From Levilactobacillus acidifarinae DSM 19394 = JCM 15949 (GTDB taxonomy: Bacteria; Bacillota; Bacilli; Lactobacillales; Lactobacillaceae): DNA of 64,000 nucleotides. The notes under the pieces are model-generated. The model made no database searches, was not told where the DNA came from, and worked only from the letters and a program-made list of their open reading frames with translations. A program made the translations under genes and the position numbers. The stretch is taken from contig NZ_AZDV01000026.1 in NCBI RefSeq assembly GCF_001434835.1, positions 1 through 64,000 on the forward strand, written 5' to 3'. Below are positions 3,194-54,560 of this stretch, piece after piece. Each line of letters opens with the position of its first letter. Within the stretch, counting starts at the first letter, position 1.

Positions 3194-3697
3194 TTAGTGG
3201 GTGGCTTTTGTGGCTAAACGCTGATATCCCGCCGCGTGATAGTGATTGGCACTGGTGGCGTAAATGTCGAGTGGCGCAAACGCCGGGGAATGCCGCCACA
3301 GAGAGAAGGCTTGACCGTCGTCCCAGAGGGTCAACAGAACGTAACTCCCACTATCGGTGGTCTTGGTCAGCACGTACAGGGCCCGCATACCGGCGGGTAA
3401 CGGATTGGCGGCCAACCGGTTGAGTTTCGCGTCAAACACGTCGGCGGTGTCCGGATCGAATTTGAAATAACTGAAGCTAAAGAAGCCGCGCCAATCGGTG
3501 GCGCCTTGGTGGAGCTTTACGCGATAGTCGAGATGCGTGGTGAAGAAACTGGGTTGACCGGAGACATCTAATAATTGAAGGCCTTCAGCATCACCGGTCG
3601 AGCTACCTAAGAGGATCAGGTGACGGTCGGGATGCGCGGCGATCAGTTTAGTCAGAATTTCCTTACTACCAAACGTTACTGCAAGATTTTGTAACAT
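3194..3697 (-). CDS. Antibiotic-biosynthesis-monooxygenase (ABM) domain protein, HmoB/TRAP-like
   Basis: 167 residues. The C-terminal third (YVLTKTTDSGSYVLLTLWDD followed by FSLWRHSPAF) is a typical ABM fold strand-helix pattern. Length and layout match the lactobacillar and staphylococcal TRAP/HmoB-like proteins, some of which bind or degrade haem. Haem binding here is not shown. ATG at 3697 has a clear AGGAGGGAG site 7 nt upstream. It is a single gene with its own terminator. Confidence 0.75.
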   Translation of the reverse strand: MLQNLAVTFGSKEILTKLIAAHPDRHLILLGSSTGDAEGLQLLDVSGQPSFFTTHLDYRVKLHQGATDWRGFFSFSYFKFDPDTADVFDAKLNRLAANPLPAGMRALYVLTKTTDSGSYVLLTLWDDGQAFSLWRHSPAFAPLDIYATSANHYHAAGYQRLATKATH

Positions 3698-19812: not shown

Positions 19813-20420
19813 AGCGTAAATTAATTGTGGCCTTGCTTGTTGTTAGTACGGGAATCATGTTAGGCGGCTGTCAGGCTATTAGTAATTTGAAGTCGGACTT
19901 TACGCAGCAGACTATTGGTCTACCAATGACCGTTCAGACGTACGATTACGATGCGCAGAAAATCGATACTGTCCACGGTAAGTCGCTATCAATTAAACGA
20001 GATGCTGAGTTTGATCAGACGGATACGGAAGGTAAGACCATCAAGAAGTCTAGCGTGTTGGACCTGACTCTAGGGGGAAAGCAGATTACCCACGTAGGCA
20101 GCAGCCTTGTAGCCTATCAGGACGGTTTGACTAATGTACTGGACAAATACCCTAAGCGAGAGAACGTTACGAATGGTGACAGTTCAATCCCATTTATGAA
20201 TCGTTTTGTTAATCGGTGTCAGAATGCGTTCACGGGCGCCAGCAAGGTGATTTTAATTCGTACGCAAACTGGGAAACCAATTGCGACCTTTGCGGGTAAG
20301 ACAGTTAGTTATAAGGCGACCAGAGTTCCCAGTAGTACGTCGTTACTGATTAATGGCAAGCGGCTATTTATCTACCGCTGTGACTTCACCATCTACACGA
20401 TGGATTCGTTGGGGGTGTAG
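19809..20420 (+). CDS. Prophage lipoprotein, DUF5052-like
   Basis: 203 residues. The signal peptide has a basic start (MKRKL), a hydrophobic core and the lipobox LGGC at residues 18-21, so cysteine 21 would be lipidated. The mature part has SLSIKRDAEFDQTD, FMNRFVNRCQNAF and LLINGKRLFIYRCDFTIY, resembling DUF5052 proteins of Firmicutes phages. Surface lipoproteins of prophages can block superinfection, but this is inferred. The GTG start overlaps the upstream stop. Confidence 0.7.
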   Translation: MKRKLIVALLVVSTGIMLGGCQAISNLKSDFTQQTIGLPMTVQTYDYDAQKIDTVHGKSLSIKRDAEFDQTDTEGKTIKKSSVLDLTLGGKQITHVGSSLVAYQDGLTNVLDKYPKRENVTNGDSSIPFMNRFVNRCQNAFTGASKVILIRTQTGKPIATFAGKTVSYKATRVPSSTSLLINGKRLFIYRCDFTIYTMDSLGV

Positions 20421-20423
20421 TAA

Positions 20424-20693
20424 ATGGGGAAATTAAGACCAGAAGAAAGTGAATTTAACCGATGGTGGTTATCACACTTTGACAATGAGAACTATAAAAC
20501 TATTTGCTTATTTGAACATGGAAAAAAGGTAAAGGAATATACCACGACCAATAAAGAGTATAGCGATATTGAGGATGCAGCAGATGCGCTTATAGTTGCT
20601 AATCAATTTGGACTGCATGTTACCAGCGTCGGTGTTAATGGCAATCGATTCAAAATGTTAAATGGCCGTGTGAGAAAAATTGCGAGCGTTTAA
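20424..20693 (+). CDS. 89-residue phage protein, unknown
   Basis: Alpha/beta protein (FNRWWLSHFDNENYKTICLF, EDAADALIVANQFGLHV). It starts 3 nt after the lipoprotein stop, with GGGGGTG upstream. No family is recognised. Confidence 0.55.
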   Translation: MGKLRPEESEFNRWWLSHFDNENYKTICLFEHGKKVKEYTTTNKEYSDIEDAADALIVANQFGLHVTSVGVNGNRFKMLNGRVRKIASV

Positions 20694-20718
20694 AACTGAT
20701 TAGAAAGGAATGACAAGT

Positions 20719-21003
20719 GTGATAATCCGTAAGAAGCCAATCACGTTAGATGCTTGGCGTGCAATCGACTTATCCATTGATGATGAAGTCCCGGTTTGGG
20801 TATTCAATGCCATGGCTAATCGCAAAATTAACGAAGTGCCCAATGGTGGGTGGAACATCAACACACTTGAAGGCAAGATGCACGCCAACTTGGGTGATGT
20901 TATTGTGCGTGGCGTCGATGGTGAATTGTATCCGATTCGCGAGGATATTTTTAAGCGAACGTATGACGTAGTTGGCGGTGACGAACATGGCGAGAATTCA
21001 TAA
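20719..21003 (+). CDS. 94-residue phage protein, unknown
   Basis: Pattern IIRKKPITLDAWRAIDLSID, MHANLGDVIVRGVDGELYP and REDIFKRTYDVV, common among small phage proteins of unknown role. ATG at 20710 directly abuts AGAAAGGA. GTG 20719 is 9 nt away from it and is preferred. It overlaps the next gene by 17 nt. Confidence 0.6.
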   Translation: MIIRKKPITLDAWRAIDLSIDDEVPVWVFNAMANRKINEVPNGGWNINTLEGKMHANLGDVIVRGVDGELYPIREDIFKRTYDVVGGDEHGENS

Positions 21004-21262
21004 TTTAAAGGTGCTACCGGAGTATTTCGAAGAACAAATGGCAGGAAGAAAGCGTTTTGAAATTCGCAAGAATGATCGTGATTATCAAGTAGGTGACCAA
21101 CTAAACCTACGCGAATGGGATGGAAAGAAGTATACCGGATTTTGTTGGATTGTCTGGATCACCTATATGACTGACTATCAGCAGAAACCAGGATATGTGG
21201 TTCTTGGAACAACTTCGGAAAACCATGATCTTCTAGGAGATTATGGGCATAATCACGATTGA
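20987..21262 (+). CDS. DUF3850 (ASCH/PUA-like) protein
   Basis: 91 residues. IHNLKVLPEYFEEQMAGRK, FEIRKNDRDYQVGDQLNLRE and GYVVLGTT match the DUF3850 pattern, a small ASCH/PUA-like barrel predicted to bind RNA or nucleotides. Its role in phages is unknown. The ribosome site is weak and translation probably relies on overlap with the upstream gene. Confidence 0.8.
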   Translation: MARIHNLKVLPEYFEEQMAGRKRFEIRKNDRDYQVGDQLNLREWDGKKYTGFCWIVWITYMTDYQQKPGYVVLGTTSENHDLLGDYGHNHD

Positions 21263-21294
21263 TTAGAATTCTTATTTTATGTAGGAGGCAAAAA

Positions 21295-21540
21295 ATGAAA
21301 ATTGTTGATAATCAGGCACATGCGATGGTAAAGAGCTACGGTGTCGGCGACGTGGTTCAAGATGATTCGTCTACTTACATGATTGTTCAGACGGATCAAG
21401 GAGACTATACCGTTGTTGATCTTGCTGATGGCACAGCAACTGGGACATTCAGCGGATTGGATGAACTGTACAGCGAAACGCACCGCGCTGGTGAACGAAA
21501 GGTAATTGCAACCGTAATGATTGAAAGAGACGCGGTTTAA
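21295..21540 (+). CDS. 81-residue phage protein, unknown
   Basis: TAGGAGG lies 7 nt before ATG 21295. Small beta-rich protein (SYGVGDVVQDDSSTYMIVQT) of barrel type. No family is recognised. Confidence 0.6.
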   Translation: MKIVDNQAHAMVKSYGVGDVVQDDSSTYMIVQTDQGDYTVVDLADGTATGTFSGLDELYSETHRAGERKVIATVMIERDAV

Positions 21541-21584
21541 GATAATCTAATTAAAGCTTTTAATTTATGGAAGGGACAAATATT

Positions 21585-21767
21585 TTGAACGAAACTAAGG
21601 AGCAAAAAGAGTGTCCATATTGTCACGGTGATTCACGGACACTTATGGACTCAGAGACTAGCGAAGCGGACGTATGGGTATCAGGCCAATCATTGTACGT
21701 CTGGGTATATGACAAGTGTGGCGTTCGTATTAACTATTGCCCTAAATGTGGGCGAAGACTTGGATAA
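21585..21767 (+). CDS. 60-residue zinc-ribbon phage protein
   Basis: Two knuckles, CPYC near residue 10 and CPKC near 54, form a likely zinc ribbon. GAAGGGA is 8 nt before TTG 21585, so the ATG at 21567, which sits on the ribosome site, is not used. Confidence 0.6.
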   Translation: MNETKEQKECPYCHGDSRTLMDSETSEADVWVSGQSLYVWVYDKCGVRINYCPKCGRRLG

Positions 21768-21784
21768 AATTAGGTGGTGATTCT

Positions 21785-21946
21785 ATGTGGGTAGTTCTCT
21801 ATGAGGATGAAGACGGTGCTGTTGTAGTTGGCGTGTTTGAGAGTCAAACCGAAGCAGCTTTGTACTGTGTAAAGAAAAATGAAGGTAGTGCTGACAATAA
21901 TTTTGGCTATGAGTATGGTGAAATCGGTGGAGACGAAAATTATTAG
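21785..21946 (+). CDS. 53-residue phage protein, unknown
   Basis: TAGGTGGTG lies before ATG. Sequence WVVLYEDEDGAVVVGVFESQ suggests a small ferredoxin-like or SPOR-like fold. Acidic. Function unknown. Confidence 0.55.
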   Translation: MWVVLYEDEDGAVVVGVFESQTEAALYCVKKNEGSADNNFGYEYGEIGGDENY

Positions 21947-21957
21947 GGGGATGCGAC

Positions 21958-22383
21958 TTGAAGAGATCAACCGTTAGAAAGGTGGAGGACATCCTTCGGG
22001 ACTATCCCAAGATTGACAAGTACATTGAGCGGCGGGAGGAAGAACTACGCTACCCGATGACGCCGGACGACGAAAATATTGGCGGTGGTCGGGCATCATT
22101 TAGCCGTAACGAAGCCCCATTGCGGACCATTATCACGATTGATGATGATCGCCGCATTAATGCACTTAAACGTCAGCGAACCATCGTGGATAATTGCTTA
22201 GACGGTGTGGGACACGATACTGAGACGATTATTGCCGAGTTGTATTTTCGCCGACATCCACGGTACACGTTAACTGGCCTAGTTGACAATGATCTAGTAA
22301 GCGTTGGAAAGGCGAAGGCCTACGAGTTGCGAAATGGGTTCATTGAGGAGTGCGCGGCGGGGTTAGGATTGTACGATGTTTAG
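21958..22383 (+). CDS. Late transcriptional regulator, RinA/ArpU-like
   Basis: 141 residues. KVEDILRDYPKIDKYIERRE opens the protein and a sigma-like helix-turn-helix closes it (DTETIIAELYFRRHPRYT, VSVGKAKAYELRNGFIEE). This is the layout of RinA, ArpU and DUF722 activators, which switch on packaging and virion genes. The TTG start has AGGGGGATG upstream. It is the last gene before the tRNA-like tract and terminase, the standard position. Confidence 0.75.
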   Translation: MKRSTVRKVEDILRDYPKIDKYIERREEELRYPMTPDDENIGGGRASFSRNEAPLRTIITIDDDRRINALKRQRTIVDNCLDGVGHDTETIIAELYFRRHPRYTLTGLVDNDLVSVGKAKAYELRNGFIEECAAGLGLYDV

Positions 22384-22473
22384 TCGTGGAAAAATTCGAG
22401 AAAACTGAACCCCGTTTTGATGGTAAATTTGTAGCATGAGATGATTGGTAATCGGAGACGATAAGCTGACTTG

Positions 22474-22582
22474 GTTCTGGTGGCGGAATAGGTAGACGCT
22501 ATGAGAAGTAGATGATTGGATGCAGCCTTCTTAGAAAGTCCAGAGTGCACATCCTGTAGGGTGCAAATCCCTACCCAGAACA
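22474..22582 (+). ncRNA. tRNA-like element A, Leu-like body with enlarged anticodon loop
   Basis: Acceptor GTTCTGG (22474-22480) pairs with CCAGAAC (22575-22581). D-arm GCG-GAATAGGTAGA-CGC is that of class II leucine tRNAs. The T-stem is 6 bp (GTAGGG/CCCTAC), loop TGCAAAT. The anticodon-position stem TGAGAAG/CTTCTTA closes an 18-nt loop instead of 7. A readable anticodon cannot be assigned. Confidence 0.55.
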
Positions 22583-22592
22583 TAGAAACGAT

Positions 22593-22665
22593 TAACCGTA
22601 ATTGTAGACGAACTACGCCCGTAACATAAAAGGGCGCCAGGGTTTGAATCCCTGGATTACCGTTA
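22593..22665 (+). ncRNA. tRNA-like element B, compact cloverleaf
   Basis: TAACCGTAAT pairs with ATTACCGTTA with one C-C mismatch. GTAG-ACGAA-CTAC is a reduced D-arm. GCCC/GGGC closes an 11-nt loop centred on CAT. The T-arm is CCAGGG-TTTGAAT-CCCTGG, again 6 bp. Total 73 nt, but U33 and the D-loop GG are missing. Confidence 0.5.
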
Positions 22666-22670
22666 TGTGG

Positions 22671-22709
22671 TGACAACCACGCAGTAAGCAACTGCGGTGC
22701 TAGTTGTCA
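22671..22709 (+). ncRNA. Long hairpin between tRNA-like elements
   Basis: TGACAAC (22671-22677) pairs with GTTGTCA (22703-22709), and inside it CGCAGT pairs with ACTGCG around AAGCA. A competing pairing, GTAAGCA (22684-22690) with TGCTTAC (22769-22775), would make a further tRNA-like acceptor. Which forms is unknown. Confidence 0.4.
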
Positions 22710-22773
22710 AAAGCGAGTCTGCTGTATACGGCGGCTTGGGATAGTGGAGCGGGTAACCTCACCCACATTGCTT

Positions 22774-22984
22774 ACTCTAGTGGCGGAAAAGGTAGACGCA
22801 GTGGGAGAGTGACATAGGTTTGGAATAAGGCAATGGTAAATGGCGGCGCATAAATGGTCCGAGTAGTTGCCAACCTACAAAAGTAAACGGATAGTAATTC
22901 TCCCGTGGAGTAGTCAATGACGACCATATCCGCGCCTAAGCCGTTTACAACATGTCATGCGAGGTGCAAATCCTCGCCTAGAGG
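22774..22984 (+). ncRNA. tRNA-like element D, Leu-like body with about 160-nt insertion
   Basis: CTCTAG (22775-22780) pairs with CTAGAG (22978-22983). D-arm GCG-GAAAAGGTAGA-CGC is one base from that of element A. The T-arm GCGAGG-TGCAAAT-CCTCGC has the same 6-bp stem and loop as A. Between D- and T-arms lie 159 nt holding GGGAGA/TCTCCC (22803-22808, 22899-22904) and GTAAACGG/CCGTTTAC (22883-22890, 22941-22948), which cross as a pseudoknot. Confidence 0.5.
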
Positions 22985-23044
22985 TTTGCCCGGCGTGGCA
23001 AGAGACTTTGTGATTTGGTTCATAGTTGTTTTCCCCTTATGTGT

Positions 23045-23089
23045 CCGTCACCTGGTGGTTGATAGCGGGTCCAATTCCCGTTGACGGTA
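23045..23089 (+). ncRNA. tRNA-like element E, acceptor plus T-arm only
   Basis: CCGTCA (23045-23050) pairs with TGACGG (23082-23087), stacked on GCGGG-TCCAATT-CCCGT. A 14-nt linker stands where D- and anticodon arms should be. It resembles a tRNA minihelix of 45 nt. Confidence 0.35.
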
Positions 23090-23146
23090 TAGCAGTCAGG
23101 TCTAACAGAGCCTGATTGTGACTGTAGGTGTGTGGTCATCTAGTTG

Positions 23147-23162
23147 CCAGTCGAAAGACTGG
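23147..23162 (+). ncRNA. GNRA-capped hairpin
   Basis: CCAGTC-GAAA-GACTGG is a perfect 6-bp stem with a GAAA tetraloop, 4 nt before element F. GNRA loops often dock into RNA receptors, so it points to a folded RNA. Confidence 0.5.
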
Positions 23163-23166
23163 TTTT

Positions 23167-23239
23167 GGATTGGTAGCTCAATGTAGAGCGTTCATCTCCA
23201 GGAGGATGAAAGATAGTGGTCCGAACCCACGTCAATCCA
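23167..23239 (+). ncRNA. tRNA-like element F, Trp-like
   Basis: Acceptor GGATTGG pairs with TCAATCC (one G-U). D-arm GCTC-AATGTA-GAGC has a short loop. TTCATC/GATGAA closes an 8-nt loop TCCAGGAG, which would offer CCA. The T-arm has four pairs, GTGG-TCCGAAC-CCAC. At 73 nt it is the closest to a normal tRNA, but the anticodon loop is not standard. Confidence 0.5.
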
Positions 23240-23291
23240 TAGCGACTGCTTTTAGAAATTTTCTCAGTCGTGATCCTTTCGTTGAGTTGGC

Positions 23292-23351
23292 AAGGCCGTG
23301 GTCTAATTGGTGGGCAATTTTATTATGCGGGTTCGAGTCCCGTCGGTCTTA
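23292..23351 (+). ncRNA. tRNA-like element G without anticodon arm
   Basis: AAGGCCG pairs with CGGTCTT (one G-U). A D-arm like that of tRNA-Asp (GTC-TAATTGGTG-GGC) is followed after 11 A/T-rich bases by a canonical T-arm, GCGGG-TTCGAGT-CCCGT. The anticodon arm is absent. Total 60 nt. Confidence 0.5.
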
Positions 23352-23461
23352 TAGAACCAGAACAAACAATACAAAAATGAAACTACGCTGGTTCGACCCG
23401 GACAATGTTCCGGGCTATTTGTTTGCTGTCAATGTATAATTAGGTGCAGGAGGTGTCATTT

Positions 23462-23701
23462 ATGAAATTCATTATTGACGGCAAAGAGTTTGAAGATGGT
23501 GGCGTTTCGCTTGGACATGTTGCGCCTAATCTCGGGAATCCCGGAGCAATTATGGTTGGAATGGGTGACCGATTACTCACTGCTATGCGTGACAATAAAA
23601 AAATTGAAGTGAAGAATCTTAAAGGCGAAGTTCATGAATTACAATATGACCTTGGGGATGATTCGGCCACCATTAGCAATTCATCGGAAGATTATTATTA
23701 G
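23462..23701 (+). CDS. 79-residue phage protein, unknown
   Basis: GCAGGAGG lies 8 nt before ATG 23462. KFIIDGKEFEDGGVSLGHVA suggests a small beta fold, with an acidic tail. A terminator follows, so it is separated from the late genes. Confidence 0.6.
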   Translation: MKFIIDGKEFEDGGVSLGHVAPNLGNPGAIMVGMGDRLLTAMRDNKKIEVKNLKGEVHELQYDLGDDSATISNSSEDYY

Positions 23702-23710
23702 AATTGGAGT

Positions 23711-23740
23711 AGGCATAGCCAAAGCTGGCGATGCCTTTTT
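23711..23740 (+). terminator. Terminator after the 79-residue gene
   Basis: AGGCAT-A-GCC pairs with GGC-G-ATGCCT, followed by TTTTTC. Confidence 0.8.
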
Positions 23741-23824
23741 CTTTGCGCATAGTGACTGGATGGAACTTGTAGTACTTTGTGATGAATACGTATTTTTGAT
23801 AGTATTTATCATGAGGTGAGGATA

Positions 23825-24293
23825 ATGACCACAATTCGCATTATCGTATCAGGATTGATTGGATTGCTGGTAGGACTATCAGCAGCGTATGGATTTAAAA
23901 ATGTGTTAAAGAAGCGAAAACTGATTCTACGGACAACGATGGCAATAATAGTTCTGTTTGCAGTTGCGTTATTAGCTGCGAAGCTCGTGGAGGTTATTCC
24001 TGACCCTCATGGCAGTTTTGGTGATTGGTTAGGATATTGGGGAAATATTATCGGTGGCATCATTGGTGCGATTGTCGCGGCTGCGGTTTCATATTTTGTA
24101 ACGACCGTAACGTTCTCCAAGTTGAATCATCAACGGGCGATTGATGAAAATAAATTTCAAGTACAAGTCAATTTACGCACCGAGCTCCTTAAATGAAGAA
24201 GTTTTATACTACATAGATAAACTCCCTGTAAAAAGCGAACTTATAAAAAACTACGCAGAGATTATTGAGGTACTACAGAAGTTTTCGCAATAA
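23825..24293 (+). pseudogene. Membrane protein gene with apparent frameshift
   Basis: The main frame from ATG 23825 (GAGGTGAGG upstream) gives 123 residues with three hydrophobic segments (IIVSGLIGLLVGLSAAYG, MAIIVLFAVALLAAKLV, IIGGIIGAIVAAAVSYFV) and stops at 24196. In the +1 frame, sense continues at once as NEEVLYYIDKLPVKSELIKN and on to TAA at 24293, giving the helical tail expected for this kind of protein. One extra A in CTTAAATGAA explains it. It may be a broken gene, a sequencing error or recoding at CTT-AAA-TGA. Confidence 0.6.
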
Positions 24294-24323
24294 TGTTGAT
24301 TAATGGAGGTATGGTGATATGTC

Positions 24324-25118
24324 ATGACAGATAAGCAGAAACAAGTTTACGAAGATTATATGCTGGGGATGTCGTACGCAGATATCGCGGATAAACATGA
24401 CATATCCGTAAACACCTTCAAATCGTGGAAGCGACGTAATGGGTGGCAGCGGGGTGCACCCCAAAAGAAAAAGGTGCATCCAAAATCAAAAGGTGCACCC
24501 AAGCAGATACCAGAAGCGGTAAAAGAACTAGAGGCAAACAGTGAGCTGACTGAGAAGCAGAAACTGTTCTGCCTTTTTTATTTGCAGGATTTTAATGCCA
24601 CTCAGGCCTACATGAGGGCGTATAAGTCTGGTTGGAAGACGGCCAATGTTAATGGTAGTGGCCTACTGGCGAAAACTAGTGTAAAGAAGCAATTGGCCGA
24701 GCTTAAGGAACAACAGAAGGCTGACCTATACGTGACTGCTGAAGATATTGCCCAAGGCTATGCAAAACAGGCGTTTGCCAGCTTGGGTGATGTGATTGAT
24801 TATAAGGTGCACACGGAACTGGTTACGGATAGTGACGGCAACGTCTTACTTGATACGAACGACAAACCGATTAAAAAGCATGTATCCGATATTTATTTGA
24901 AACCAAGCGACCAAATTGATTGGTCTCTGGTGCAAGAGGTGCATCGTGGTAAAGATGGCCTGGTGGTTAAACTATTTGATAACCAGAGGGCTAAGGCTGA
25001 ACTCATGAAGTATTTGAAGGATAACAAGGCTGACGGTGATGACGTCACCATTAACTTGATTCGGAGCGATCGGAGGAATAAGGATGGAAATCAACGTGAA
25101 TCTGGACAATCTGATTAA
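24324..25118 (+). CDS. terS: Terminase small subunit
   Basis: 264 residues. An N-terminal helix-turn-helix (YADIADKHDISVNTFKSWKR) is followed by the Terminase_2 core (LTEKQKLFCLFYLQDFNATQ, GSGLLAKTSVKKQLAEL). It recognises the packaging site and regulates the large subunit. Its own gene holds three GGTGCAYCC repeats, a candidate pac site. It overlaps terL by 35 nt. Confidence 0.9.
   Translation: MTDKQKQVYEDYMLGMSYADIADKHDISVNTFKSWKRRNGWQRGAPQKKKVHPKSKGAPKQIPEAVKELEANSELTEKQKLFCLFYLQDFNATQAYMRAYKSGWKTANVNGSGLLAKTSVKKQLAELKEQQKADLYVTAEDIAQGYAKQAFASLGDVIDYKVHTELVTDSDGNVLLDTNDKPIKKHVSDIYLKPSDQIDWSLVQEVHRGKDGLVVKLFDNQRAKAELMKYLKDNKADGDDVTINLIRSDRRNKDGNQRESGQSD
24451..24500 (+). repeat. Candidate pac repeats inside terS
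   Basis: GGGGTGCACCCC (24451-24462), AAGGTGCATCC (24471-24481) and AAGGTGCACCC (24490-24500) recur at about 19-20 bp, close to two helical turns. SPP1-like phages carry pac within terS, so this is a reasonable TerS target. Confidence 0.4.
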
Positions 25119-26424
25119 TCCTCATTTCGATGATGTTCTGTTCTCCGGTGCACTCAATAAGGTGTTAGAGGGCGGCCGGGGGTCAACTAAATCATCCGTG
25201 ATTAGCATTCAGCTAGTTACGGATTTTTTAATGGATTCACACGGCAATGCCTTGGTTATGCGTAAGGTTGGCAAGAACATCGGGCTGTCTGTCTACGAGC
25301 AAATCAAGTGGGCCATTTACGAACTGCACGTTGAAAGCCAATTTAGGTTCACGACGTCCCCATACCGTATCATGCACAAGAAAACGGGGACCGCATTTTA
25401 CTTTAGCGGTGTCGATGATCCACAGAAATTGAAGTCAATCATCATTGCCAACGGCTATGTTCGGTGGCTCTGGTTTGAAGAACTAGCGGAGTTCGGCAGT
25501 TGGGAAGAAATCGATACAGTTCGGCTCTCTTTTACCCGTAAGAAGCTGCCACCGGGGATGCACGTTATTACCTATTGCAGTTATAACCCGCCACGTAACC
25601 CATACGAGTGGATTAACCAATGGGCGGATTCACGGCGAGGGATGACTAATTGGTATGTGGATCACTCGACTTATAAGGACGACGTGCTGGGGTTTCTGTC
25701 GCAAGACTACTTAGATGAAATCCAAGTGGTTAAGAAGAATGACCCCGATTATTACCGATGGATGTACTTAGGCGAAGAGGTTGGATTAGGTACTAACGTA
25801 TACAATGCTGACTTATTTCATCCAATTAAGGAATTGCCTGATGATGATCCGTTGGCTTGGAAAAGTTATTCAATTGACGCTGGGCATATTAATTCAGCGA
25901 CGACGTGTCTTGCCGTAGGTGTAACTGCTAAGGGCAAGGTAATTGTGTTGGACACCTATTATTACTCACCAGCTAAGAAGGTTGTTAAAAAGGCGCCAAG
26001 CGACCTGGTACCGGAAATTTATGATTATGAGCAGGCCAATGATGAGAGGTTTCCTGTTCGTATCCGCCGCCGGACGATTGATTCTGCTGAAGGTGCATTG
26101 CGAAACGAATTTGTTAAGGAAAAGAGTGAGCGTTGGCACGGCGTTAAGAAGACTGACGAAGCTGACATGATTGATTATGTTTCGTCACTGCTGGCACAAG
26201 GTCGCGTGTATTACTTGGACACCGAGAACAATAAGGTCTTTATCGAACAGCACCGACAGTACCAGTGGGATGAGAAGACTGTTCACAGCGACAATCCTAA
26301 GGTGGTCAAGGAAAATGACCATACGCCTGATGCGTTTAAGTATTTTGCAATTGATAACGCTAAAGAGTTGGGATTGAAGCAAGGTAAGGCCGTTGCCAAG
26401 GCCAAGCCGAAGGTGTTCAGATAG
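25084..26424 (+). CDS. terL: Terminase large subunit
   Basis: 446 residues of the Terminase_3/PBSX type. ATPase: Walker A EGGRGSTKSS (residues 28-37) and Walker B WLWFEELAEF (about 130). Nuclease: acidic residues in YSIDAGH (about 260), TIDSAEGA (about 335) and near DHTPDAFKYF (about 420). It pumps DNA into the prohead and cuts it. GGAGG lies 6 nt before ATG. The headful mode is inferred from the family. Confidence 0.95.
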   Translation: MEINVNLDNLINPHFDDVLFSGALNKVLEGGRGSTKSSVISIQLVTDFLMDSHGNALVMRKVGKNIGLSVYEQIKWAIYELHVESQFRFTTSPYRIMHKKTGTAFYFSGVDDPQKLKSIIIANGYVRWLWFEELAEFGSWEEIDTVRLSFTRKKLPPGMHVITYCSYNPPRNPYEWINQWADSRRGMTNWYVDHSTYKDDVLGFLSQDYLDEIQVVKKNDPDYYRWMYLGEEVGLGTNVYNADLFHPIKELPDDDPLAWKSYSIDAGHINSATTCLAVGVTAKGKVIVLDTYYYSPAKKVVKKAPSDLVPEIYDYEQANDERFPVRIRRRTIDSAEGALRNEFVKEKSERWHGVKKTDEADMIDYVSSLLAQGRVYYLDTENNKVFIEQHRQYQWDEKTVHSDNPKVVKENDHTPDAFKYFAIDNAKELGLKQGKAVAKAKPKVFR

Positions 26425-53222: not shown

Positions 53223-54560
53223 ATGGGTAATTTATTTATTGATAGTCTCTTAAAAGCGACCTGGGTGGAAACGCTCATCAATGTGTGTCTGTTGGTCCTG
53301 TGCCTGTACCCCGTCGTCGGGTCGTTCTTCTGGTTCGCGGGTTCCCTGTCGTACCGGTTCTTAAAGACCAACAAGCGCGATACCGATTGGCACAACCTTC
53401 CGGTCAAGCGCCAACCGATGATCACCATCATGATCCCGGCGCATAACGAAGAGGTCATGATTGAAGAGACCATCACCTACCTGTTTGAAAAATTAAACTA
53501 TCAAAACTTCGAGGTCCTGGTGATGAACGACGGATCGACCGACCACACCGCCGCCATCATCGCCCGCCTGCAAGGACGCTACCCACGGTTACGGACCGTG
53601 GAGATCGTTAAAAATAAGGGCAAGGCCCACGCCTTTAACATCGGCATGTACTTCGCGAAGGGGGAGTACATCCTGAGTAACGACGCCGACACGATCCCGG
53701 AACCCGACGCATTGATGAAGTACATGAACTTCTTCACCCACGCGCGGGACATGAACACCTCGGCGGTCACGGCCAACATGGACGTCCAGAACCGCACGAC
53801 GTTACTGGGAAAATCCCAGACCGTGGAATTTTCCAGCATCGTGGGGGTCATCAAGCGGAGCCAGACCTCGGTCAACGACTCGATGTACGCCTATAGTGGG
53901 GCCAACACGCTGTACCGCAAGCAATTTCTGATCGACGTGGGGGGCTTCCGGCAAAACCGGGCCACCGAAGACATCAGTATCGCCTGGGACCACCAGATGA
54001 TTGGGGCGGTGCCACGGTTTGCGCCCAACGTGGTCTTTCACATGAACGTCCCCGAGACGCTGCGGGACCTGTACCATCAGCGCAAGCGCTGGGCGCAGGG
54101 GGGCACGGAGGTCTGGCTGACTAACATCAAAAAATTTCTCCGTCACCCGGTTGAACACCGCTACCAACTATCAATGTTCGTGGATTCGACGTTGTCGATT
54201 GTCTGGTCATTTTTCTTCGTGATCACCGGCGTGGCGTTTTTGTTGTTGATGGCTTATTTTGCGGTGACCGGGAACGACGAGCGGCTGTTTCACGGGTTCG
54301 TGATGTCGTTTATCTTCGTGACCTTTGAACTCTTTGCCGGGTTCATGCAGCTGCTAGCGGCCTTAATTCTGGACCACCACGGCGCCAAGCTGAAGTACCT
54401 GATTTTTGCGCCGTTGTACATGTTGTTTTACTGGATGGTCAACCCGATTACCGTGGTGATGACCTTTATTCCGGCTCTAAAAACGATCCTGGGCTTTGGC
54501 TCGGGAACCTGGGTCAGTCCTAAACGGCGGTCGTTACAGGGTCAAGAGAAGCCAAAATAG
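53223..54560 (+). CDS. Processive family 2 glycosyltransferase, PgaC/BcsA-like
   Basis: 445 residues. A membrane helix (about 15-40) precedes the GT-A domain with PAHNEEVMIEETI, VLVMNDGSTDHT, SNDADT (DxD), ATEDISIAWDH and QRKRW (QxxRW). Two to three C-terminal helices form the polymer channel. All five motifs of processive beta-glycan synthases are present. The product may be a PNAG-like or cellulose-like exopolysaccharide. With the EAL protein it suggests c-di-GMP control. Confidence 0.85.
   Translation: MGNLFIDSLLKATWVETLINVCLLVLCLYPVVGSFFWFAGSLSYRFLKTNKRDTDWHNLPVKRQPMITIMIPAHNEEVMIEETITYLFEKLNYQNFEVLVMNDGSTDHTAAIIARLQGRYPRLRTVEIVKNKGKAHAFNIGMYFAKGEYILSNDADTIPEPDALMKYMNFFTHARDMNTSAVTANMDVQNRTTLLGKSQTVEFSSIVGVIKRSQTSVNDSMYAYSGANTLYRKQFLIDVGGFRQNRATEDISIAWDHQMIGAVPRFAPNVVFHMNVPETLRDLYHQRKRWAQGGTEVWLTNIKKFLRHPVEHRYQLSMFVDSTLSIVWSFFFVITGVAFLLLMAYFAVTGNDERLFHGFVMSFIFVTFELFAGFMQLLAALILDHHGAKLKYLIFAPLYMLFYWMVNPITVVMTFIPALKTILGFGSGTWVSPKRRSLQGQEKPK

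Follow-up and report, generated by a model that had tools for sequence, protein, structure and literature searches.

The interval between the late activator gene and the terminase genes of a lactobacillus prophage raises a simple question: what are the tRNA-like elements that lie in it, and are they failing tRNA genes or RNAs of another kind? The window, by which we mean the whole stretch of 64,000 nucleotides of Levilactobacillus acidifarinae DNA that was analyzed, bears this prophage, and the tract in question occupies positions 22384..23461 (Table 1). The original prediction had placed six units here, each with an aberrant anticodon arm. All six exist, and their anomalies were confirmed as an 18-nt loop, an 11-nt loop, a 159-nt insertion, an absent arm, an 8-nt loop, and an absent arm for units 1 to 6, respectively. 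The 6-bp T-stem, predicted for three units, is in fact shared by units 1 to 4, with G–U pairs in unit 4.

Table 1. Positions of the tRNA-like units, their parts, and the neighboring genes in the window
Feature	Position	Strand	Description
ArpU/RinA-like late transcription activator gene	21958..22383	+	PHROG 36 and 2198; directly upstream of the unit array
Unit 1, frame element	22474..22582	+	109 nt; 87.9 bits with model R1
Unit 1, acceptor	22474-22480 with 22575-22581	+	
Unit 1, D-arm	22481-22499	+	
Unit 1, cargo	22500-22555	+	
Unit 1, T-arm	22556-22574	+	6-bp stem, loop TGCAAAT
Unit 1, discriminator	22582	+	A
Unit 2, tRNA-like	22596..22663	+	6-bp T-stem; 4-bp stem and 11-nt loop replace the anticodon arm
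Conserved stretch between units 2 and 3	22681..22784	+	79% identity to G007 over 102-105 nt
Unit 3, frame element	22774..22985	+	212 nt
Unit 3, cargo	22800-22958	+	159 nt
Unit 3, T-arm	22959-22977	+	
Unit 4, mini-tRNA without anticodon arm	23044..23089	+	46 nt
Unit 5, near-normal tRNA	23167..23239	+	8-nt anticodon loop on a 6-bp stem; Rfam tRNA, 41.2 bits
Unit 6, mini-tRNA without anticodon arm	23292..23351	+	60 nt, class M-60; Rfam tRNA, 32.4 bits, anticodon arm skipped
Terminase small subunit gene	24324..25118	+	PHROG 2606 and 51; downstream of the unit array
Second terminase gene	25084		

Counting T-arms with a full stem and a conserved loop, we found five on the plus strand of the window beyond the host tRNA array, all of them in this interval, and one on the minus strand; 2000 Markov shuffles of the interval averaged 0.013 such arms and never had more than 1. 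ARAGORN called none of the six units, and the Rfam tRNA model matched only units 5 and 6, with no Rfam match for units 1 to 4. Direct reading of the sequence shows one mismatch in the acceptor of unit 2, an A–G first acceptor pair in unit 3, six acceptor pairs plus a T–T in unit 4, and only four good T-stem pairs in unit 5. Units 1, 3, 4, and 6 read as lacking an anticodon stem of about 5 bp with a 7-nt loop. Units 1 and 3 combine a 6-bp T-stem with G55, unlike decoding tRNA, and unit 6 has a 5-bp T-stem and U55. An 8-nt anticodon loop like that of unit 5 is a feature of frameshift suppressor tRNAs. The conserved stretch between units 2 and 3, whose ends read as pairing GTAAGCAA with TTGCTTAC and which overlaps the start of unit 3, could possibly be another structured RNA or a switch.

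A constant tRNA frame with exchangeable cargo

Units 1 and 3 fall into a large family of RNAs that Bacillota phages carry, and the main point beyond the original prediction is that its members consist of a constant frame with exchangeable, separately conserved cargo. The frame combines an acceptor of 7 bp with a D-arm like that of tRNA-Leu and a T-arm that has a 6-bp stem and a GUGCAAAUC loop; where a tRNA would have its anticodon and variable arms, there are 28-196 nt of cargo. Unit 1 has every one of the defining features (7-bp acceptor, tRNA-Leu-like D-arm, 6-bp T-stem, GTGCAAATC loop), and unit 3 has all except acceptor pair 1. The ends that these two units share with many phages are the acceptor, TGGCGGAATAGGTAGACGC, and the 6-bp T-stem with loop TGCAAAT. 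Counting sequences with the D-arm motif and at least six of seven acceptor pairs, we collected 237 distinct sequences (one of which spans two elements) from 233 loci, with lengths of 81-249 nt, 114 acceptors, and 153 cargo groups.

The pairing of the frame is supported by covariation. Sixty elements, one per cargo group and preselected for at least six of seven acceptor pairs, had 99.0% of cells paired and a score of 0.701 versus 0.178 in shuffles, with two-sided changes at 13 of the 16 frame pairs. Loci picked by the T-arm alone gave a D-arm motif upstream in 195 of the 249 T-arms with 300 nt of upstream DNA (absent, by the rule used, in 54), and in 182 of these 195 cases at least 6 of the 7 acceptor positions pair. 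Permuting the acceptor partners (106 combinations, 1000 tries) yielded a mean of 3.49 and at most 3.91 pairs, compared with 6.35 observed. The 7-bp acceptor and the D/T elbow partners of decoding tRNAs are thus retained by covariation.

The T-loop departs from that of decoding tRNAs. Among 82 elements found with a pattern that leaves positions 54-55 open (loci L301-L384 only), these positions read TG in 72, TT in 9, and TA in 1; a parallel count of 152 of 164 includes loci chosen for TG. T55 is found in a few family members; among 500 distinct tRNAs that ARAGORN called at these loci, 6 have TGC. An encoded CCA after the discriminator is present in 1 of the 237 sequences, and its absence from the others would imply 3′ ends of the RNase Z type. 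One reading is that the RNAs are aminoacyl donors that evade EF-Tu and serve a nonribosomal reaction, which would accord with the tRNA-Leu-like D-arm and the divergent T-arm. We consider it very unlikely, as 80 of the 237 discriminators are not A (54 are T, 16 C, and 10 G; 157 are A), the cargo is left unexplained, and no partner enzyme was seen.

The family is widely spread. A T-arm with at most two mismatches is found in 30 of 397 Lactobacillaceae genomes, many of which show compensated stem changes, and a reversed-pattern control gave one hit among the matches listed. T-arm scans of IMG/VR returned at least 120 loci each. A scan of named genomes, confined to short cargo, gave 14 matches, all in Bacillota except one Acidobacteria MAG that is perhaps contamination. 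Model R1 reached at least 60 bits in 5 of 200 genomes of the class; as R1 splits unit 3 into two partial 29-bit matches and does not recognize long-cargo members whole, its counts are lower bounds, and most of its matches below 45 bits in these genomes measure 80-87 nt, the length expected of host tRNA-Leu. Full members occur in named phages of Enterococcus, Leuconostoc, Weissella, Latilactobacillus, Lacticaseibacillus, and lactobacilli, and the infected hosts overall include lactobacilli, Listeria, Enterococcus, Leuconostoc, Weissella, and Bacillus. A cyanophage match from the same search proved to be an ordinary tRNA-Leu outside the family. Standard tRNA finders and Rfam miss this family.

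The cargo behaves as a separate block. By local alignment the 237 cargoes form 153 groups; 123 groups have a single member, so that the case for constraint rests on the multimember groups. Twelve groups occur on acceptors that differ at three or more of seven positions, and the single acceptor GTGCTTG carries 18 cargo groups in 55 elements. When both 100-nt flanks were compared among 227 elements, the 39 flank-matched pairs, which are not independent, divided into 20 with the same cargo and 19 with different cargo. For example, L243 and L179 have a flank score of 194 of 200 and unrelated cargo, and flanks match while cargo differs even between LP65 and Lenus, phages of different families. Unit 1 and its syntenic counterpart in genome G007 share acceptor, frame, and flanks and differ in cargo; the unit 1 cargo recurs on another acceptor in L217 and in Lacticaseibacillus saniviri (L288), where its stem AGAAG/CTTCT is replaced by ACACG/CGTGT.

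Listeria phages LP-LmcIH1-8, B025, PSA, LP-101, and FHC193-PLM9 have one acceptor (ATACTCG), related leaders, and at least four cargo types. In phage A118 the leader, a match to the Listeria RNA rliG, is present without a frame element. We also observed that rliG, reported as a detected RNA (PMC6786865), overlaps the leader after the late activator (L391:1341-1503, L402), and that frame elements with differing cargo follow it in several Listeria phages.

Unit 3 provides the most detailed view of a single cargo. Searched against 50,697 phage records, the unit 3 region, insertion included, matched LP65, Lpa804, Bacchae, and ATCC 8014-B2, virulent phages of other groups (Herelleviridae, Tybeckvirinae), at 78-81% identity across some 200 nt. 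One 52-pair structure fits nine sequences (the window, genome G006, these four phages, and three IMG/VR contigs, several of them closely alike). The structure was drawn from these same nine sequences, which biases the share of paired cells (97.2%) in its favor, and the stronger evidence is the two-sided changes, found at 25 of the 52 pairs. The covariation score of 0.389 compares with 0.192 in shuffles (0 of 500 as high) and with at most 0.107 in a slid control. The cargo contains two crossing helices, GGCGC with GCGCC and GTAAACGG with CCGTTTAC, and both change in step among the relatives. In the LP65 record, the annotated protein orf80 overlaps the unit 3 relative at 53842-53982 and may be no protein.

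Constraint is not confined to this cargo, as compensatory pairs are also seen in cargo groups other than that of unit 3. The folding energy of the cargoes is only slightly below that of shuffles (mean z of -0.60, n = 95). A search for a general sequence motif found 5- to 7-mers mildly enriched and nothing general; TAAG lies near the start of 25 of 97 cargoes. When antisense matches were sought between cargoes and the DNA of the collected phage loci, only further family members were apparent among the 25 best matches.

These results bear directly on whether the units are decayed tRNA genes. The original prediction of tRNA-derived, nondecoding RNAs held in that acceptor, D-arm, and T-arm are kept with no decoding anticodon arm, a state that is conserved for units 1, 3, 4, and 6. 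Conservation in related phages, set beforehand as a test that could refute the prediction, was found for units 1, 3, and 6, and for unit 4 on few relatives: its G007 counterpart, in which acceptor pairs are changed, L157, and an element beside the SPP1 member described below make up the handful. Because this nondecoding state persists in other phages, simple decay does not account for the four units. The compensatory stem changes, which the covariation check detected both in the unit 3 relatives and in the frame family, the fixed unusual T-arm, and the presence in many phages rule out decay for units 1, 3, and 6, taken as a class. Decay does occur, given that the unit 3 slot of G007 is reduced, with D-arm and cargo lost. 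Relatives of units 2 and 5 were looked for and none were found; this fits decay, and those two units may be decaying at present.

Genome positions and companion mini-tRNAs

Members of the family occupy varied positions. In many phages they directly follow the late activator gene, as in the window, and in others they lie between the terminase genes, inside tRNA arrays, or in other regions. Of 60 sampled upstream ORFs (from 129), up to 20 match one late-activator family, and two related families account for 14 and 13 with overlapping counts. The downstream ORFs are mixed, with HNH endonucleases at most 5 of 60 and the small terminase at most 4 of 60 per family. An ARAGORN tRNA lies within 3 kb of only 75 of 225 elements. 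In Bacillus phage SPP1, a full member at 3423-3532 of X89721 lies in the gap between head genes 9 and 11, and a short tRNA-like element without an anticodon comes next. In phi3T, the copy in the yonN region has every part and one additional base; in strict register, 3 of its 7 acceptor pairs form.

This diversity of positions is the reason that two of the earlier proposals, a leader that controls the late operon and a structure at the DNA packaging site, are unsupported, the former at least as a general rule. The packaging reading draws on the array preceding the terminase genes in the window, and, with members far from those genes in LP65, Bacchae, SPP1, and phi3T, it has hardly any chance of being right. 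A further possibility is that the elements punctuate the late transcript, with RNase P and RNase Z cuts trimming it and the released RNAs being by-products. Such a role would explain the frequent position after the late activator and the strand, which is shared with the nearest downstream ORF in 120 of 139 cases and with the upstream ORF in 114 of 139. We nevertheless regard punctuation as rather improbable because the cargo is conserved and exchanged and because members also lie away from the head of the late operon.

Units 4 and 6 belong to a companion class of anticodon-less tRNA-like RNAs in the islands that hold frame elements. A scan for an acceptor and T-arm joined by a link of 13-32 nt gave 41 matches (33 distinct) within 1.5 kb of frame elements, all 41 on the strand of the element, versus one match in about twice as much DNA farther away and none in a Markov control. 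The class of unit 6, M-60, appears with matching length in many lactobacillus phages; the length, partly imposed by the search pattern, is 60 nt in 40 of 41 cases at loci up to L406, where it was left open at 6-40 nt. At loci that were mostly collected for the frame, 60 of 75 M-60 copies precede a frame element, with a median gap of 46 nt. In the M-60 scan, 49 of the 80 listed loci were already in the collection, and at newly collected loci a frame element lies within 1.5 kb downstream in only 7 of 36. We therefore rejected M-60 as an obligate partner of the frame element: the two share islands without forming an obligate pair.

Another possibility is that these RNAs are decoys, whose tRNA frame alone titrates host tRNA-binding or tRNA-cutting defense factors and whose cargo serves only to block decoding. 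Cargo-free mini-tRNAs nearby would suit such a role, as would the far greater conservation of the frame than of the cargo, which is partly due to selection for the D-arm motif. A decoy for anticodon nucleases, however, would be expected to keep the anticodon arm, the very part that is missing, and individual cargoes are conserved with compensatory pairs; decoys are accordingly an unlikely explanation in our judgment.

A proposed function and relation to known RNAs

The reading that we favor, with modest confidence, is that a tRNA frame serves to mature these phage RNAs, which stay outside translation and carry effectors that can be swapped. The acceptor, D-arm, and T-arm, with G19–C56 and T54–A58 as partners, would fold into a tRNA elbow. 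RNase P, RNase Z, and the CCA-adding enzyme recognize the tRNA elbow (PMC4810234). With the elbow partners preserved in the family, the frame most likely serves for end processing of the kind that tRNAs undergo. Cleavage by RNase P and RNase Z would then release the element from longer phage transcripts as a stable RNA with defined ends; transcription, such processing, and exclusion from translation are what the sequences lead us to expect. Decoding is impossible for the element: it has no anticodon arm, its acceptor and T-stem add up to a helix of 13 bp rather than 12, and G replaces U at position 55. The long helix together with G55 could plausibly keep it out of translation.

In this proposal, a folded cargo RNA takes the place of the anticodon and variable arms, and recombination within the near-identical frame ends would swap cargo between phages. 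In all likelihood the cargo is the working part, because the frame is fixed while the cargo is replaced as a block and individual cargoes retain their folds; such turnover suggests that the target itself changes. Distinct cargoes would most probably have distinct targets, in the host or in rival phages, and reach them in trans, although an effector role for the cargo is a guess. More tentatively, we suggest an RNA-cassette system in phages of Bacillota, in which a tRNA frame matured by host enzymes and locked out of translation displays one of very many exchangeable effectors, probably in an arms race against hosts or competing phages.

No account of such RNAs was found in the openly licensed full-text library that was searched; most subscription papers and preprints lie outside it, so an earlier description is possible. 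If the cargo acts on defenses or rivals, the more than 150 cargo groups would amount to a ready library of phage RNA effectors. The membership of SPP1 makes expression, processing, and function testable in Bacillus subtilis 168.

In the engineered tRNA scaffold, a chosen RNA is set in a tRNA frame to gain stability. That scaffold is man-made, and the phage family, if our reading is true, would be its natural counterpart, one stable self-processing frame with interchangeable RNA payloads. Bacterial tRNA-Sec has a 13-bp acceptor/T helix, which the frame family shares as 7 + 6 bp, but the family lacks the UCA anticodon, the long variable arm, and any anticodon arm. The EF-Tu-rejecting pairs of tRNA-Sec (PMC9976931) are not those seen in the family. 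Like tmRNA, the elements have a tRNA-like end domain and a large insert, pseudoknotted in tmRNA as in unit 3, in place of the anticodon arm; unlike tmRNA, they keep a D-arm with a stem, and their insert is not conserved family-wide. No RF00023 match was found in 20000-26000, and ARAGORN recognized no tag reading frame. In Enterococcus phage 21C1, a tmRNA (L393:1146-1493) directly adjoins a frame element.

The nonproteinogenic tRNA-Gly of Staphylococcus, in which a GUGC T-loop occurs, has an altered T-arm, as the frame family does. It retains an anticodon and has an altered G18–G19 (PMC4052509), whereas the family has G18–G19 and no anticodon. Canonical tRNA-Leu of phage or host resembles the frame in its 7-bp acceptor, very similar D-arm, T-arm, and elbow partners; the family differs in lacking an anticodon arm and an encoded CCA and in having a 6-bp T-stem and G55. 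A further reading is that the cargoes are intron-like inserts in tRNA-Leu genes, whose removal would yield a tRNA, and the inserts do lie at the usual place of tRNA introns. One locus, L244:4289-4420 (+), is a tRNA-Leu with an ordinary T-arm and an insert of about 49 nt in the anticodon loop, beside the anticodon, closed by AGCAGGT/ACCTGCT. In the family, however, no anticodon arm is left once the cargo is removed, no group I intron Rfam match appears in 20000-26000 at E up to 10, and the frame, with its 6-bp T-stem and G55, is unlike decoding tRNAs, which makes introns highly improbable.

ROOL and GOLLD are structured RNAs without a known function that phages often carry close to tRNA islands (PMC12286853). 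They are much larger than the frame elements, differ in sequence and fold, and have no tRNA frame, and neither has an Rfam match in 20000-26000 at E up to 10. ROOL co-occurs with frame elements in the arrays of LP65, 8014-B2, and Iacchus, and ROOL RNAs lie at L011:3865-4439, L014:1443-2015, and L017:1388-1943 in tRNA arrays that also hold frame elements. Finally, loci L318, L319, L336, L347, and L384 may represent a second frame type, tRNA-Leu-like with a 5-bp T-stem and T55; six or all seven of their acceptor pairs form, and the middle is long, in some cases with no obvious anticodon arm.
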